From the NCBI GenBank assembly GCA_016870915.1, contig VFZY01000035.1, positions 1 to 39,822 of the forward strand: a stretch of 39,822 nucleotides of DNA. The letters are read 5' to 3'. The notes below the pieces were generated by a model. The model saw only the letters and a list, made by a program, of their open reading frames with translations, was not told the DNA's origin and ran no database searches. The stretch is from Acidobacteriota bacterium. Lineage in GTDB: Bacteria; Acidobacteriota; Terriglobia; Bryobacterales; Bryobacteraceae. A program made the translations under genes and the position numbers. Shown here piece by piece: positions 26,465 through 34,147 of this stretch; position 1 is the first letter of the stretch; every line of letters starts with the position of its first letter.

Positions 26465-28984
26465 TTACTCGCGCGTGATGAACTCGTCCAGGTTGAGAAT
26501 CGCGCTGGCGAGGCCGGTCCAGGCGGCGGTTTCGACGCGCGAGACGCCGGGGACTTCCAGGGGGAAAAGAACGGCGGCGGCCTTGGCGTCCCGCTCAAAC
26601 AGACCGGTTTGCTGCTGGTAATAGCCGCTGGCAAACTCCGCTTCGCGCCGGCTGGGCGGGCGGCTCAGGCAGATTTGAAAGAGATGCTCGATGCGCGCGG
26701 CGACCGATGGAGCGGGCTGCTCGCGCAGGAGCCGCGCCGTGAGGGCTTGCGCGGACTCGACGAAAACAGGATCGTTGAGCAGGTTCAGCGCCTGGAGAGC
26801 GGTGTTGGAGCGGTCCCGCTTGCAGGCCGCGAGGCTGGCGTCCGGCGCGTCGAAGTTCATTAGCTGCGGATACGGCACCGTGCGCTGAAAGTGGATGTAG
26901 AGTCCGCGCCGGTAACGATCGCGGCCCGTGCTCTCCGGCCAGCCTGCGTCAGTGCCATAGGCCAGTTCGATCACACCCTTGGGCATGGGCGGGCGAACGC
27001 TGCGGCCGCCAATGGCGGGATAGAGAAGTTCGCTGACGTGCAACGCCGAGTCGCGGACCAGTTCGGCCGGAAGGCGCAGGCGCGACTGATGCGACAGGAG
27101 CGCGTTGCCGGGATCGCGGGCATCCATATCCGGGCGGGCGTGCGAGGACTGGCGATACGTGGCGGAGGTCACAATGAGCTTGATCAGCATCTTCCGTTTC
27201 CAGCCAAGGTCCATGAAGCGCGAAGCGAGAAAATCCAGCAGTTCTGGATGCGATGGCTTTTCACCCTGCGCGCCGAAGTCCTCCGGAGTCCGCACGAGGC
27301 CGCGCCCAAACAATTCCTGCCACACCCGGTTGACCGTCACGCGGGCGGTGAGCGGATTCTCCGGAGACACGAGCCAGCGCGCCAGCGTCAGCCGCGGCGG
27401 GGCGGCGCCGAGAGGTGGAGCGTGGAGGAACGCTGGAACAATGGGGCTGACCGGCTCCGCAGGCTTCTTCCACTCGCCTCGCGTGAGAATGTGGGAGGGC
27501 CGGGTAGCCCCCTCGGCCATCACAGGCGCTTCGCTCAACGCGGGATAAGCGCCGCGCAGTTCGCGGAGTTGCTTCCGCGCTTCGCCCCAATTCAGTTCCT
27601 TCCACAGTTCCTTGCTGATGACGCGGTGATAGTTCTGGATGAAGTGATCGGTCATCGCGTCGGTCTGCTTCTGGGTTCGCTGCGCCGGCGGCGTGTCGAG
27701 AATCTGCAGCGCGTGGTCCAGGTACTTCGTCAATGCGTCGAAGGCGTGATCCCAATCGGTCCACTTGCCGGGAAATGCGCGCGCCTCCTTCATGCGTGCT
27801 TCCCAGGCCGGTTGGTAATCGGCCACCTTGTACCTGGCCAGGATCTCCTCGCGCTTGTTGCGATAGGCTGACAGCCGGGCGAGGTACGGGCCCATCTCGC
27901 CGGCCAGCGGCGCGTCGACGTTCATCTCGGCGGTGGAGTTGAAGAAGGCGAACATCTGATAGAAGTCGCGCTGTGAGATGGGGTCGTACTTATGGTCATG
28001 ACATTGCGCGCAGCCAAACGTCAATCCCAGCCAAACGGTGCCGACGGTGGCCGCGCGGTCGAGAACCTGTTCGACGCGAAACTGCTCGATGTTGACGCCG
28101 CCTTCGCGATTCGTGAGTGTGTTGCGGTGGAACCCGGTGGCGATGCGCTGGTTGAGCGTCGCGTTCGGCAACAGGTCACCGGCGATCTGCTCGACGGTGA
28201 ACTGGTCGAACGGCATGTCGGCGTTGATCGCGTCGATCACCCAATGCCGCCAGCGCCAGGCGTGCGGGCGCACGTAGTCTTTCTCGTAGCCGTCACTATC
28301 GGCATACCGCGCCAGATCCAGCCACGGGCGGGCCCAGCGCTCACCATAGTGCGGCGATTCAAGCAGGCGATCCACCAGGCGCTCGTAAGCGTCGCCGCGA
28401 TTATCGCCGAGGAACTCCGCCACTTCGCGGGGAGACGGCGGCAGGCCGGTGAGGTCAAGCGATACTCTGCGAATCAACGTGGTTTTGGCGGCCTCGGGCG
28501 AAGGCTCCCAGCCTTCTCGTTCCAGCCGGGCGAGGATGTAACGGTCAATCTCATTGCGCGCCCACGTCTGGTTGCGCGTGGCGGGCGGGGCGGTGCGCGC
28601 CACAGGCTGGAACGACCAGTGCTTGCTCTTCGCGCCGGTGGCGGCCGCGGCAGACACAGGCCAAACCGCGCCCGCATCGATCCATTCTCGGAGCTTGGCG
28701 ATCTCCGCCGCGGTTAGTCGCGCGCCCACCGGTGGCATCACGCGCTTGTCTTCCAGGCCCGCCACTAGGCGCAGCAGGAGGCTGGCGTCGCTCTTGCCGG
28801 GCGACAGCACTCGCACCGCATCGTTCCGGTTGTCGAGGCGCAGGCCCTTCATCTGCGTACGGGCGCCATGGCAGGACACGCAACGCGCCGCCAGGAGCGG
28901 TTCGATATCGCGCGCGAAATCCACCGCCGCCGCGGCGAGCGCCGGCAGCAGAATTCCATGCAGAGCCACGAGGAAGCTTCTCAT
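26465..28984 (-). CDS. PSD1 protein with N-terminal planctomycete-type cytochrome c domain (DUF1549/DUF1553)
   Basis: The protein of 839 residues has a Sec signal (LVALHGILLPALAAAA) and then a heme c motif, Cys35-Val-Ser-Cys38-His39, in the short PSC1-type domain with MPPVGARLTAAEIAKL supplying the likely distal Met. DUF1549 follows from about residue 145 (RRVSLDLTGLPPSP, then RPWLDLARYADSDGYEKD, then a second CxxCH in CAQCHDHKYDP), and DUF1553 fills the C-terminal part (ARWLVSPENPLTARVTVNRV, then FGAQGEKPSHPELLDFL). It is probably periplasmic. It starts in a 4-nt overlap with the upstream DUF1501 gene. The heme domain suggests electron transfer linked to the oxidoreductases of the operon, which is inference. 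Confidence 0.92.
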   Translation of the reverse strand: MRSFLVALHGILLPALAAAAVDFARDIEPLLAARCVSCHGARTQMKGLRLDNRNDAVRVLSPGKSDASLLLRLVAGLEDKRVMPPVGARLTAAEIAKLREWIDAGAVWPVSAAAATGAKSKHWSFQPVARTAPPATRNQTWARNEIDRYILARLEREGWEPSPEAAKTTLIRRVSLDLTGLPPSPREVAEFLGDNRGDAYERLVDRLLESPHYGERWARPWLDLARYADSDGYEKDYVRPHAWRWRHWVIDAINADMPFDQFTVEQIAGDLLPNATLNQRIATGFHRNTLTNREGGVNIEQFRVEQVLDRAATVGTVWLGLTFGCAQCHDHKYDPISQRDFYQMFAFFNSTAEMNVDAPLAGEMGPYLARLSAYRNKREEILARYKVADYQPAWEARMKEARAFPGKWTDWDHAFDALTKYLDHALQILDTPPAQRTQKQTDAMTDHFIQNYHRVISKELWKELNWGEARKQLRELRGAYPALSEAPVMAEGATRPSHILTRGEWKKPAEPVSPIVPAFLHAPPLGAAPPRLTLARWLVSPENPLTARVTVNRVWQELFGRGLVRTPEDFGAQGEKPSHPELLDFLASRFMDLGWKRKMLIKLIVTSATYRQSSHARPDMDARDPGNALLSHQSRLRLPAELVRDSALHVSELLYPAIGGRSVRPPMPKGVIELAYGTDAGWPESTGRDRYRRGLYIHFQRTVPYPQLMNFDAPDASLAACKRDRSNTALQALNLLNDPVFVESAQALTARLLREQPAPSVAARIEHLFQICLSRPPSRREAEFASGYYQQQTGLFERDAKAAAVLFPLEVPGVSRVETAAWTGLASAILNLDEFITRE

Positions 28985-30376: not shown

Positions 30377-32488
30377 CTATTCACGGGTGATGAACTCGTC
30401 GAGGTTCAGCAGAACGCTGGCCAGCCCGGTCCAGGCCATGGCGGGCGGCTGGGTCTTCCAATATGATTGCAGCCAGTCGCGTTCGTCAGGCGCCGCCAGG
30501 CGAGCGAGGCACAGTTCAAACATGCGGTCCAGCCGCGGCCCGAAATCGCGATAGCCTTCTGTCTCGGTGCGCCATGCCAGCGTCCGGGCTGCTTCGACGA
30601 ACGCCGGGTCATTTAATAGATTCAACGCCTGGAGCGGCGTGTTAGACCGGCCGCGGCGGCATAGCGCGCCGTAGCCGTTGGGGGCGTCGAAGTTGACCAT
30701 CAACGGATACGGAGCGGTGCGGTTGAGCTGGATGTACATGCCGCGCCGGTAACGTTCGCGCCCAGTGCTTTCCTTCCAGTTTTTTTCGCCGCCCGGTTGC
30801 GGCGGGCGTACACTGGGGCCGCCGATCTCGGGCGAAAGCAACCCGCTGGCCGCGAGCGCGCTGTCACGAATCGCTTCAGCGGTCAGCCGGAGGCGCGTCT
30901 GGCGGGCAAAAAGTTTGTTCTCCGGATCGCGCCCGGCCAGATCGGCACGCGAGTGGGACGACTGGCGGTAGGTGGCTGACGAAACGACGAGGCGGTGAAC
31001 ATGCTTGAGGCTCCAGCCGCTCTCCATAAACTCAGCTGCGAGCCAGTCCAGCAATTCCGGGTGCGTGGGACGCTCACCCTGATTGCCGAAATTCTCAGAG
31101 GTTCGCGCCAGGCCGCGGCCGAAGTACTCCTGCCAGATGCGATTCACGGCCACGCGCGCGGTGAGCGGATTCTCCCGCGACACCAGCCAGCGCGCGAGAT
31201 CAAGCCGTGTGGCTCGTCCGCCCGCGGCGTCGAGTGGCGGCAGCGCGGCGGGCGTGCCGGGTTCGACGGCTTCGCCCAATTGCTTGAAATCACCTCGTAT
31301 CAGCAGATGCGTCTTGCGGTCGAGCGCGCGCAACACCGGCGCTTCGCTCACAGGCGGCAACGTGGCGTCGAGTTCACGCAGTTGCCTGGCCACTGTGTCA
31401 AACTTCAGCTCGGCCTTGCGCTCCTTGGAAATCACGCGCGCGTAGTTGCCGAGGAAATAGTCTGTAAGGATCCTGGCCTGACGCCGCGTGCGTGTGGCGG
31501 CCGGTGTGCGGAGAATCTTTTCACCATCCTCACAGTCAGTACGGAGGTCGTCAAAAGCGTGGTCCCAATCGAGGCGCTTGCCCGGGTGCACGGCCGCCTC
31601 GATCATGCCGACCTCCCATTCAGCCTGCAACCTGGGTACGCCGTGGGCCTCGAGAATTTCGCGCCGTTTCGCATCGTAGGCCGGCCGCGCTTGCAGATGC
31701 GGTCCGAGTTCGCCCGGCATCGGCGCATCCATATGGTCTTCGTCCGCGTCGTTGAAGAAGGCAAACAGCCGGTAGTAGTCGCGCTGGCTGATCGGGTCGT
31801 ACTTGTGATCGTGACACTGCGCGCACCCGACGGTGAGTCCCAGCCAGACGGTGCCCACGGTGTTGGTGCGATCGATCACCTGTTCCACACGAAACTGCTC
31901 CGGGTCAATGCCGCCTTCGCGATTGGTGAGCGTGTTGCGGTGGAACCCGGTGGCGATGCGCTGATCTCGAGTCGCGTTGGGCAGCAGGTCGCCGGCGATC
32001 TGTTCGAGTGTGAATTGATCAAAGGGAAGATCGCGATTGAGTGCGTCGATCAACCATTGGCGATATCGCCAGGCGTGTGGGCGGAAGCGATCGGAGCGGA
32101 AACCGTCCGAGTCCGCATAGCGCGCCAGATCCAGCCAGTGGCGGCCCCATTTTTCACCGTAGTGCGGCGACGCAAGCAGCCGGTTCACCTGACGCTGCCA
32201 TGCATCCGGCTGCTGGTCTTCGAGGAAACTCGCCAACTCAGCCGGCGTGGGAGGCAGACCGATCAGATCGAGCGACAGACGGCGCAGCAACACTGCCCTG
32301 GGCGCTTCGGGCGAGGAAGCGATGCCTTCTTTCTCCAGCCGCGCGCGGATGAAGCGGTCCACTTCGGGAAGCCCGGTGGCGTTGGCCTTCGGCGGCTGGG
32401 GGCGGCGCACCGGTACTAGCGACCAGTGGTCCGCCGCATGCACTGCGGAGGCCAGCAACAACACGACGATGCCAGGACGAATCGACAT
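30377..32488 (-). CDS. PSD1 protein without cytochrome c domain (DUF1549/DUF1553)
   Basis: From the ATG at 32488, 2 nt after the preceding stop codon, the protein has 703 residues with a Sec signal (IVVLLLASAVHAAD). DUF1549 starts almost at once (RRLSLDLIGLPPTP, then RHWLDLARYADSDGFRSD, with CxxCH in CAQCHDHKYDP), and DUF1553 follows (ARWLVSRENPLTARVAVNRI, then FGNQGERPTHPELLDWL). It lacks the roughly 110-residue N-terminal heme domain of its paralog at 26465-28984, although the internal CxxCH is kept. The longer open frame upstream of 32488 is not protein-like. The shortened form may be a natural variant of the family or the result of a deletion that also affected the genes upstream. Confidence 0.9.
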   Translation of the reverse strand: MSIRPGIVVLLLASAVHAADHWSLVPVRRPQPPKANATGLPEVDRFIRARLEKEGIASSPEAPRAVLLRRLSLDLIGLPPTPAELASFLEDQQPDAWQRQVNRLLASPHYGEKWGRHWLDLARYADSDGFRSDRFRPHAWRYRQWLIDALNRDLPFDQFTLEQIAGDLLPNATRDQRIATGFHRNTLTNREGGIDPEQFRVEQVIDRTNTVGTVWLGLTVGCAQCHDHKYDPISQRDYYRLFAFFNDADEDHMDAPMPGELGPHLQARPAYDAKRREILEAHGVPRLQAEWEVGMIEAAVHPGKRLDWDHAFDDLRTDCEDGEKILRTPAATRTRRQARILTDYFLGNYARVISKERKAELKFDTVARQLRELDATLPPVSEAPVLRALDRKTHLLIRGDFKQLGEAVEPGTPAALPPLDAAGGRATRLDLARWLVSRENPLTARVAVNRIWQEYFGRGLARTSENFGNQGERPTHPELLDWLAAEFMESGWSLKHVHRLVVSSATYRQSSHSRADLAGRDPENKLFARQTRLRLTAEAIRDSALAASGLLSPEIGGPSVRPPQPGGEKNWKESTGRERYRRGMYIQLNRTAPYPLMVNFDAPNGYGALCRRGRSNTPLQALNLLNDPAFVEAARTLAWRTETEGYRDFGPRLDRMFELCLARLAAPDERDWLQSYWKTQPPAMAWTGLASVLLNLDEFITRE

Positions 32489-32490
32489 GT

Positions 32491-32757
32491 CTACTGAGCC
32501 GCGGCAAACTCCTTCCAATACGTCTTCGGGTCGCTGCCTTCGTGAATCGCGACGCCGTAGCGGAAGCGCAACGTGCCGCCCGCCGGATTTTCCATTTTCC
32601 CATCCATTGTTCTGTCTTTGGTGAAGCCGCGCACGCCGAACGGATTGGCGGTGTGGACGCCGTAGTCGCACGTATGCCGGTAGGTCGGGTAGCGGGGCTT
32701 GGACGGATGATCGAGGATTCCCACGCCGCGTCTCGCCCTTTCAATCCAGCCACTCAT
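32491..32757 (-). CDS. Truncated DUF6807 (PmoA-like) protein, C-terminal part only
   Basis: The open frame of 88 residues from the ATG at 32757 reads RGVGILDHPSKPRYPTYRH, then DYGVHTANPFGVRGFT, then PAGGTLRFRYGVAIHEG. These are the conserved C-terminal motifs of DUF6807 proteins, normally about 300 residues and common beside DUF1501/PSD1 and Gfo/Idh genes. The N-terminal two thirds are absent; directly upstream is an intact cupin gene, 2 nt away. The start codon lies inside one unit of a 19-bp tandem duplication. It still fits the operon spacing (2 nt on either side), so it may be translated, but function as a hydrolase or binding protein is doubtful. A GTG at 32772 would add five residues. 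Confidence 0.7.
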   Translation of the reverse strand: MSGWIERARRGVGILDHPSKPRYPTYRHTCDYGVHTANPFGVRGFTKDRTMDGKMENPAGGTLRFRYGVAIHEGSDPKTYWKEFAAAQ

Positions 32758-32777
32758 CTTCAATCCACCCACTCATC
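32740..32777. repeat. 19-bp tandem duplication at the cupin/DUF6807 junction
   Basis: Units 32740-32758 and 32759-32777 are directly adjacent and identical except one base (G at 32749, C at 32768). The right-hand unit encodes the last residues and stop of the cupin, the left-hand unit supplies the start codon and first codons of the DUF6807 fragment in another frame. Confidence 0.85.
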
Positions 32778-33107
32778 CGCCGGGTCGAACTTCGGCATCG
32801 CCACGATCAGCACCTTCATCCGGCCAATCGCGCGATGCCTCACACCGGGAGGGATCAACACACAGTGGCCGGGCCGCACCGCCTCCACCGCGCCGTCGAG
32901 TTCCATTCGGGCGTCGGGACCGCACTCCAGGAAGTAATAGGTCTCTGTGAGCCGCTTGTGATAATGCAGCGCCGCATCCTCACTGATCTCCGTCACGTGG
33001 ATCGTGGCCGGGAAGTCGGGTACGTCGGCAAATGCCCGGCGCGCGGTGCCGCACGGACAAGGCACGCCTGGTATAGACGCGAAATCCACGATCATGGGCT
33101 GCAACAT
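32760..33107 (-). CDS. Small cupin-fold protein
   Basis: The ATG at 33107 overlaps the NHL gene stop by 1 nt (TGATG) and gives 115 residues; a TTG at 33110 is also possible. The single cupin barrel shows the two motifs, HYHKRLTETYYFLECG and GHCVLIPPGVRHRAIG, with the His-x-His, Glu and late His that bind a metal. A CPCG pair lies near the N-terminus (GVPCPCGTARRAF). No signal peptide is visible. It may be a sugar isomerase, dioxygenase-like enzyme or a ligand-binding protein of the operon; the sequence does not decide. Confidence 0.88.
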   Translation of the reverse strand: MLQPMIVDFASIPGVPCPCGTARRAFADVPDFPATIHVTEISEDAALHYHKRLTETYYFLECGPDARMELDGAVEAVRPGHCVLIPPGVRHRAIGRMKVLIVAMPKFDPADEWVD

Positions 33108-34147
33108 CAAACCCGCCTCAATTTAGTGACTCGCCCCACTTCCACCCACTCGGTGACAAAGATGTTGCCGGCGTGGTCGAACCAAGCGCCGTGCGGGCTT
33201 ACGAATTTTCCGGCGCGAAACTCGCTGCGCGGTCTCTTGCGCAGTTCCTGCCAATCGCCCGTTGTGTCTTCGCCGAGGTGCGTGATGACATTGTTGTCGC
33301 GGTCGAGCAGGGTGACGCGCGCGGCGAGATCAGGGATCACGGCCACGCCCTTGCGCTCATGAAAATGGCAGGGCAGGTTGACGCCGCCGGCAAAGCCAAT
33401 ATTCCGCCCATCCAGCGTGAATTTCTGCAGCCGGTTGTTGGAGCGATCCGCCACCAACAAGTAGGGCTCCTGGCCGCGCGTGTCGATCATCAAGCCATGC
33501 GGCGCGGCGAGCTGACCCGGGTCCTTGCCGTTGCCGCCGAAGGAGCGAACAAACTTCCCCCGCGTGTCGTACTGATTGATGTAGTAAGAGCCGTAGCCGT
33601 CGGCGAGATAAACATCCCCATTCGGCGCGATCGCCACATTCGTCGGACTGAACTTGGTGGAACCATCGGGCTTGTAGCCGGGCGCTTCCTTCGGATAGCC
33701 GATGCGCAGGACTTCCTCGCCCTGGAGCGTCATCTTCACCATCCACGTGTCCTTGGCGCTGATGCCGCCGCCCGGGCGCCCCTTGCCGGTGTCGACAAAG
33801 TAGAGAAACTCGTCGCGGCCCTCTTTGCGCAGATGCAGGCCGTGCGCCCCGCCACGAAACGCCGCGCCCCAGCTCCGGATGTACTTGCCCTTGCGGTCAA
33901 ACACCACCAGCGTGTCGTGGCGCTCGGCAGAGGCGTGGCTGGTGTGCGCGATGTAAATGTGGCCTTGCGAATCCTCCACCACGCCGTGCGTGTTGCCCCA
34001 GCGAATGCCGGCGGGCAGTTCGCCCCAGTCGTGAATCGCCTCGTAGGTGTGCTCGCCGGAACCAAGGATGGGCGGGCGCGTGCCGGACTTGGCGGCCGCT
34101 CCCAGGATGGCGGGCGCCGCGGATAGCAGCAGGCTTCTTCGTTTCAT
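33107..34147 (-). CDS. Exported NHL-repeat beta-propeller protein
   Basis: An AGGAG site about 8 nt before the ATG at 34147 fixes the start (346 residues). The N-terminus MKRRSLLLSAAPAILGAAA is a twin-arginine-like signal. At least four NHL-type blades are visible, each with a G-V-x-x-D-x-x-G-x-I-Y or N-R-L-Q-K-F pattern: THGVVEDSQGHIYIAHTSH, TNVAIAPNGDVYLADGYG, LLVADRSNNRLQKFTLDG and GAWFDHAGNIFVTEW. Six-bladed propellers of this kind act as binding platforms or as lyases of the peptidyl-hydroxyglycine or streptogramin type. It lies in tight linkage between the TIM-barrel and cupin genes. Confidence 0.9.
   Translation of the reverse strand: MKRRSLLLSAAPAILGAAAKSGTRPPILGSGEHTYEAIHDWGELPAGIRWGNTHGVVEDSQGHIYIAHTSHASAERHDTLVVFDRKGKYIRSWGAAFRGGAHGLHLRKEGRDEFLYFVDTGKGRPGGGISAKDTWMVKMTLQGEEVLRIGYPKEAPGYKPDGSTKFSPTNVAIAPNGDVYLADGYGSYYINQYDTRGKFVRSFGGNGKDPGQLAAPHGLMIDTRGQEPYLLVADRSNNRLQKFTLDGRNIGFAGGVNLPCHFHERKGVAVIPDLAARVTLLDRDNNVITHLGEDTTGDWQELRKRPRSEFRAGKFVSPHGAWFDHAGNIFVTEWVEVGRVTKLRRV

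Follow-up and report, generated by a model that had tools for sequence, protein, structure and literature searches.

The open reading frame of 88 codons found between a cupin gene and a PSCyt2/PSD1 gene is very probably, as judged from sequence comparison, the 3' remnant of a deleted DUF6807 gene, a relic that is perhaps still translated. It is a case of ordinary gene decay, involving a known family and a known kind of event, in which the small twist is the origin of the start codon. The frame lies in a 39,822-nt stretch of DNA (the whole stretch analysed is here called the window) belonging to G000, a draft genome of 6.6 Mb in 367 contigs, 97% complete. DUF6807 is Pfam family PF14100, earlier labelled methane oxygenase PmoA.

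Results

Organisation of the operon and domain content of the frame

The genes follow each other on the minus strand in the order NHL, cupin, 88-codon frame, PSCyt2a, DUF1501, PSCyt2b and DUF1501 (Table 1), PSCyt2b being a second PSCyt1/PSCyt2/PSD1 gene downstream in the operon. From NHL to PSCyt2b each junction is either an overlap or a 2-nt gap. The likely ATG start of the cupin gene overlaps the stop codon of the NHL gene, and the cupin stop codon TGA (32762-32760) is followed by a 2-nt gap and by the ATG of the frame (32757-32755), whose stop codon TAG (32493-32491) is in turn separated by 2 nt from the ATG of PSCyt2a (32488-32486). The spacing on both sides and the absence of internal stops in the 88 codons agree with what the preliminary description had reported. 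PSCyt2a lacks a PSCyt1 cytochrome domain in the domain search, a difference from its paralogue at 26465-28984. No promoter or terminator was found at 32300-33200 by a scan for consensus sequences, and no Rfam match at the gathering threshold was obtained between 30000 and 35500.

Table 1. Features of the remnant and of its surroundings (positions in the window)
Feature	Position	Strand	Basis
Open frame, 88 codons, holding the DUF6807 remnant	32491..32757	-	ORF list; PF14100 match
DUF6807-homologous part, 80 codons, RRGVGILD...FAAAQ	32494..32733	-	Alignments with G235, G058, G066 and G047
Cupin gene, upstream of the remnant	32760..33107	-	PF07883
PSCyt2a, downstream gene, PSCyt2 (DUF1549) and PSD1 (DUF1553)	30377..32488	-	Domain search
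NHL-repeat protein gene, operon anchor	33107..34147	-	Domain search and orthologues
19-bp copy 1, tail of the cupin gene as used (encodes DEWVD and stop)	32759..32777	-	
19-bp copy 2, repeated cupin tail (reads DEWLD-stop), giving the ATG of the remnant in another frame	32740..32758	-	
Deletion junction zone, native-like intergenic AAAGGGCGAGA meeting the DUF6807 interior	32728..32742	-	Comparison with G235, by eye

Residues 5-75 of the frame match positions 196-259 of the 270 of PF14100 (E = 2.5e-8) with a score of 34.3 bits, above the curated cut-off of 27 (32.2 bits when the profile is searched against the whole genome). Profile positions 1-195 and the signal-like N-terminus of the family are absent; compared with full-length orthologues, about 220 codons are missing upstream of the remnant, signal peptide included. 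The frame had been described as the last 88 residues of a DUF6807 protein; indeed it holds the C-terminal part only, but the DUF6807-derived share is about 80 of the 88 residues, the rest coming from a duplicate of the cupin tail (see below). AlphaFold modelling gave a mean pLDDT of 33.5 for the remnant and an equally low 32.7 for a 150-residue control. For the intact DUF6807 protein of the related genome G066 no matching solved structure was found at E values up to 10, and NCBIfam holds no model for this protein or for the remnant.

The DUF6807 gene at the same place in related genomes

A search for the gene was carried out in 237 genomes of the bacterial family of G000, 191 of which, G000 included, had a match; 150 matches are listed, and 26 genomes without a match are absent from them. 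Outside G000, the best among the matches listed were in G235 (65%), G066 (65%), G058 (59%) and G047 (54%), with the match starting at residue 8 of the remnant in the first three and at residue 10 in G047; a second genome of the genus of G000 did not occur among them. A tree built on four proteins of the operon separates G000 and G235 from four others with a support of 100.

Full-length DUF6807 genes were found at the place of the remnant, as the comparison of orthologous operons proposed in the preliminary description would require for a relic. G235 has NHL, cupin, DUF6807 and PSCyt2a all on one strand, with a full-length DUF6807 exactly at the place of the remnant, 10 nt behind the cupin gene with a different start codon of its own, 1 nt before PSCyt2a and with an N-terminus that is signal-like as judged by eye; this gene is frameshifted in its middle (L121:7490-7530), which may be real decay or an assembly error. 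G058 shows the same succession, its DUF6807 being intact and oppositely oriented, and G066 an intact one at the same place, likewise on the opposite strand, without the cupin gene. G047 is rearranged and has no cupin gene there; its intact DUF6807 adjoins NHL on the opposite strand, 1.8 kb from PSCyt2a. An opposite-strand DUF6807 adjoining NHL is also present in G091 and G094, and G218 has neither cupin nor DUF6807, NHL being next to PSCyt2a. About 50 bp separate the NHL and PSCyt2a matches at the G218 locus (L171:8843-8896).

Five relatives (L123, L122, L124, L173 and L174) thus carry DUF6807 on the strand opposite to the operon, and G235 (L121) and the window carry it on the same strand as the operon. 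This difference is a single-gene inversion in place; by parsimony, the gene would have been inverted in the common ancestor of G000 and G235 and later truncated in the window lineage. No 8-mer shared as an inverted repeat was found within 80 bp on either side of the gene ends in G058, G066 and G235. The absence of DUF6807 from G218, its reduction in the window and perhaps its frameshift in G235 suggest that it is dispensable in this operon.

A family of naturally short DUF6807 proteins, which the preliminary description had named as an observation that would speak against a truncation, was considered and rejected, as no other intact short copy occurs among the 150 matches listed. In 145 of these the open frame is at least 290 aa; the five shorter ones are those of the window (93 aa), G235 (169), G002 (146), G070 (226) and G075 (207), where the last four are explained by the frameshift (G235), an in-frame stop (G002) or matches running to contig ends (G070 and G075). 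The window copy is the only one below 100 aa, and none of the 149 other matches listed is below 140 aa. The in-frame stop of the G002 gene lies in mid-gene (L191:6049-6921), making it another possible pseudogene of the family.

Origin of the start codon

The ATG of the remnant and its first residues lie inside the second of two 19-bp copies of the cupin tail (Table 1). In the window, GATGAGTGGGTGGATTGAA is directly followed by GATGAGTGGCTGGATTGAA; the two copies form an imperfect tandem duplicate with 18 of 19 bases identical, and the ATG is out of frame relative to the cupin tail. Copy 2 matches the cupin tail of G235 at 17 of 19 bases and the DUF6807 genes of G235, G058 and G066 at 13 bases at most, at any place. 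On its 3' side there is an intergenic stretch like that of G235, then the DUF6807 interior, entered a few codons before residue 225 of G066 (break judged by eye). In the 61 full tails among the loci of cupin relatives, the penultimate residue is F in 40, L in 12, M in 5 and V in 1, so that the letters of the two copies say little about which is older.

Three observations run contrary to a cupin origin of the first residues: the Pfam match begins at residue 5, many weaker family matches begin at residue 2 or 3, and MAFFT aligns W4 of the remnant with the W of the DUF6807 WxDY motif. We read this last pairing as a coincidence. An in-frame fusion of cupin and DUF6807 through the TGG-GTG-GA stretch present in both was discarded, since copy 1 ends in a stop codon and copy 2 is nearer to cupin tails.

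The ancestral gene would thus have been a full-length, probably secreted DUF6807 between the cupin and the PSCyt2/PSD1 genes. In the window lineage, after the split from G235, a deletion of about 670 bp, as the comparison shows, took away the 220 or so codons together with the original start codon and the signal-like N-terminus, and the imperfect tandem duplication of the cupin tail would have placed an ATG, out of the cupin frame and by chance in that of the remnant, 2 nt past the cupin stop; the anatomy of the junction can be read directly, the order of the events being the probable one. Ribosomes ending the cupin gene may restart at this ATG, and a short peptide may thus be made. Since the ATG is inside the duplicated cupin tail, the idea that the truncated gene was kept in operon phase holds for its 3' side, where PSCyt2a follows at an inherited distance (1 nt in G235 and 2 nt in the window), and fails for its 5' side, where the spacing is newly made (10 nt in G235).

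Selection on the remnant

Window-only changes were counted at comparable sites, i.e., those where G235, G058 and G066 agree, over 78 aligned codons of the remnant, which align without gaps. Codon positions 1, 2 and 3 were changed at 12 of 60, 7 of 68 and 4 of 31 sites, versus 57 of 2241, 40 of 2468 and 208 of 990 in seven neighbouring genes pooled (cupin compared with G235 and G058 only, as G066 lacks it; oxidoreductase over 158 codons, up to the contig end of G058). The remnant thus differs from its neighbours at positions 1 and 2 taken together (odds ratio 8.3, Fisher p = 9e-11) and not at position 3 (p = 0.37).

G091, G094 and G218 were left out of the codon-based tests. The dN/dS of the fragment, another check that had been proposed, is raised: with some branches saturated, the codon model gave an omega of 0.36 on the window branch versus a background of 0.105 (p = 0.02), and no raised omega on this branch in six neighbouring genes fitted in the same way (PSCyt2b left out). 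In the free fit the omega of the window branch does not differ from 1 (p = 0.12), in a test that is weak, as it also leaves omega = 1 standing for TIM (p = 0.10) and for oxidoreductase (p = 0.05). When the branch lengths of three neighbours, one at a time, were imposed, omega was 0.39-0.51 on the window branch and 0.06-0.07 in the background. An omega of 1 throughout the window branch was then rejected (2dlnL of 5.8, 6.9 and 11.1), indicating that constraint either acted along part of the branch or persists to some degree. Most simply, selection acted for part of the window branch and the sequence was free afterwards. When the G235 branch was left free, the cupin fit reached an odd optimum, with an omega of 8.4 on a near-zero branch, and was disregarded.

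Out of 26 near-invariant columns (at least 90% conserved), six are changed in the window, including a W-to-R and an R-to-C replacement, versus one in G235 and none in G058, G066 and G047; only two of 34 other sequences, both remote G000 paralogues, have a higher fraction of conserved columns changed. The near-invariant C-terminal residues of DUF6807 are, that is, not kept by the remnant. With most of the domain lost and this pattern of substitutions, the remnant would not be expected to work as a DUF6807 protein, and the sequence of any peptide made from it would no longer, or barely, be under selection.

The relaxed constraint expected of a gene remnant is thus found, with an omega that stays below 1 for the branch as a whole and a relaxation partly common to G235. 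In G235 the same stretch gave omegas of 0.21, 0.21 and 0.47 in the three fits with neighbour-derived lengths, the value with NHL branch lengths being above the 0.39 of the window, and has more change at positions 1 and 2 than the neighbours (p = 0.003); since it is also fast there, some relaxation may predate the deletion or belong to the break of G235 itself. Window-only versus G235-only amino-acid changes were 16 versus 6 (p = 0.053), or 9 versus 6 when agreement of G047 was required as well, and 10 versus 2 (p = 0.04) in NHL. Over the whole G235 gene there is likewise more change at positions 1 and 2 than in six neighbours (p = 1.3e-7), with a ratio of positions 1 and 2 to position 3 of 0.33 versus 0.18. 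The N part is strongly divergent in the DUF6807 genes of G058 and G066 too, so that part of this excess is the own rate of the gene, and the only sharp sign of decay in G235 is the frameshift.

Discussion

Full-length orthologues at the same place and lineage-specific substitutions showing weak protein-level constraint support the relic by deletion that had been offered as one of two explanations of the short frame. The frame is intact, and one may ask whether this calls for an explanation. In a simulation with substitutions only, the probability of no stop in this frame was 0.51 after 25 and 0.45 after 30 random substitutions; as it stays free of stops about half the time by chance, its being intact does not argue strongly for a function.

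This figure bears on a translational bridge, an explanation we regard as unlikely, in which the peptide is useless and the frame is kept open so that ribosomes ending the cupin gene can travel on to the start of PSCyt2a. The tight layout of the operon and the stop-free frame would fit it, as would the constraint on PSCyt2a (omega 0.085) and the weak Shine-Dalgarno pairing of PSCyt2a, -1.7 kcal/mol in the last 20 nt, compared with -6.7 for the start of the remnant. However, a stop-free frame is expected about half the time anyway, and the pairing of PSCyt2a is equally weak in G058 (0.9) and G066 (-2.3), where no coupled gene stands in front, and stronger in G235 (-5.0, coupled) and G218 (-8.0), so that no clear rule emerges; moreover, G235 tolerates a frameshift in DUF6807, if the frameshift is real. 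In its full form, which we likewise consider rather improbable, selection would ignore the amino acids and remove stops and frameshifts, and the new start codon in the duplicated tail would have restored the chain that the deletion had broken. If true, the bridge would be a concrete case of selection on an open frame and not on a protein.

Much less probable still is a functional minimal DUF6807, the second explanation of the preliminary description, in which the C-terminal segment would still act as a short peptide: the open frame, the plausible restart site and the omega below 1 in the fits with neighbour-derived lengths are compatible with it, but the change rates are similar at the three codon positions, near-invariant residues are lost, three quarters of the domain are gone along with the signal-like N-terminus, and no other intact short member occurs among the 150 matches listed. 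A peptide may still be translated; it is its working as a protein that the substitution pattern opposes.

That the assembler made the deletion or the 19-bp repeat and the genome carries the full gene is very hard to credit, as, despite a draft of 367 contigs and a repeat located right at the junction, the two copies differ by one base, the remnant carries accumulated relaxed-constraint substitutions that would be unexpected of an intact gene, and no 5' part was found. Indeed, the PF14100 search of the 97%-complete assembly returned four matches, namely the remnant and three diverged full-length copies, and no orphan 5' part of the gene elsewhere. A sequencing error hiding the N-terminus, which had also been considered, does not fit with a distance of only 2 nt between cupin and remnant.

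The 3' remnant of a deleted gene, the reading we prefer, can be set beside three known systems. With the DUF6807 family it shares a match above the Pfam cut-off and the operon place of the full-length copies of relatives, and it differs in lacking most of the domain and the signal-like N-terminus, and in the replacement of a conserved W and a conserved R. Like bacterial deletion pseudogenes it is truncated with respect to intact orthologues and under relaxed constraint, with a further relative, G218, having lost the gene; unlike them it has, by chance, a start codon and lies close to the genes on either side. Its layout, with 2 nt between stop and start codon at either end, recalls translationally coupled cistrons; in the remnant the upstream spacing arose with the duplication. 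A caution follows for annotation: with a fortuitous start codon and short spacers to its neighbours, a remnant resembles a real small operon gene, and a gene caller may annotate it so.

In the literature searched, a limited collection, DUF1501, DUF1549 and DUF1553 were not found named together. DUF6807 occurs in one paper of this collection, as a number reached by Pfam (PMC10971088).

Among the loci of relatives of the cupin gene, 51 of 67 are titled Planctomycetota and, apart from that of G235, they do not have the gene order of this operon, a distribution that suggests horizontal transfer or strong conservation.
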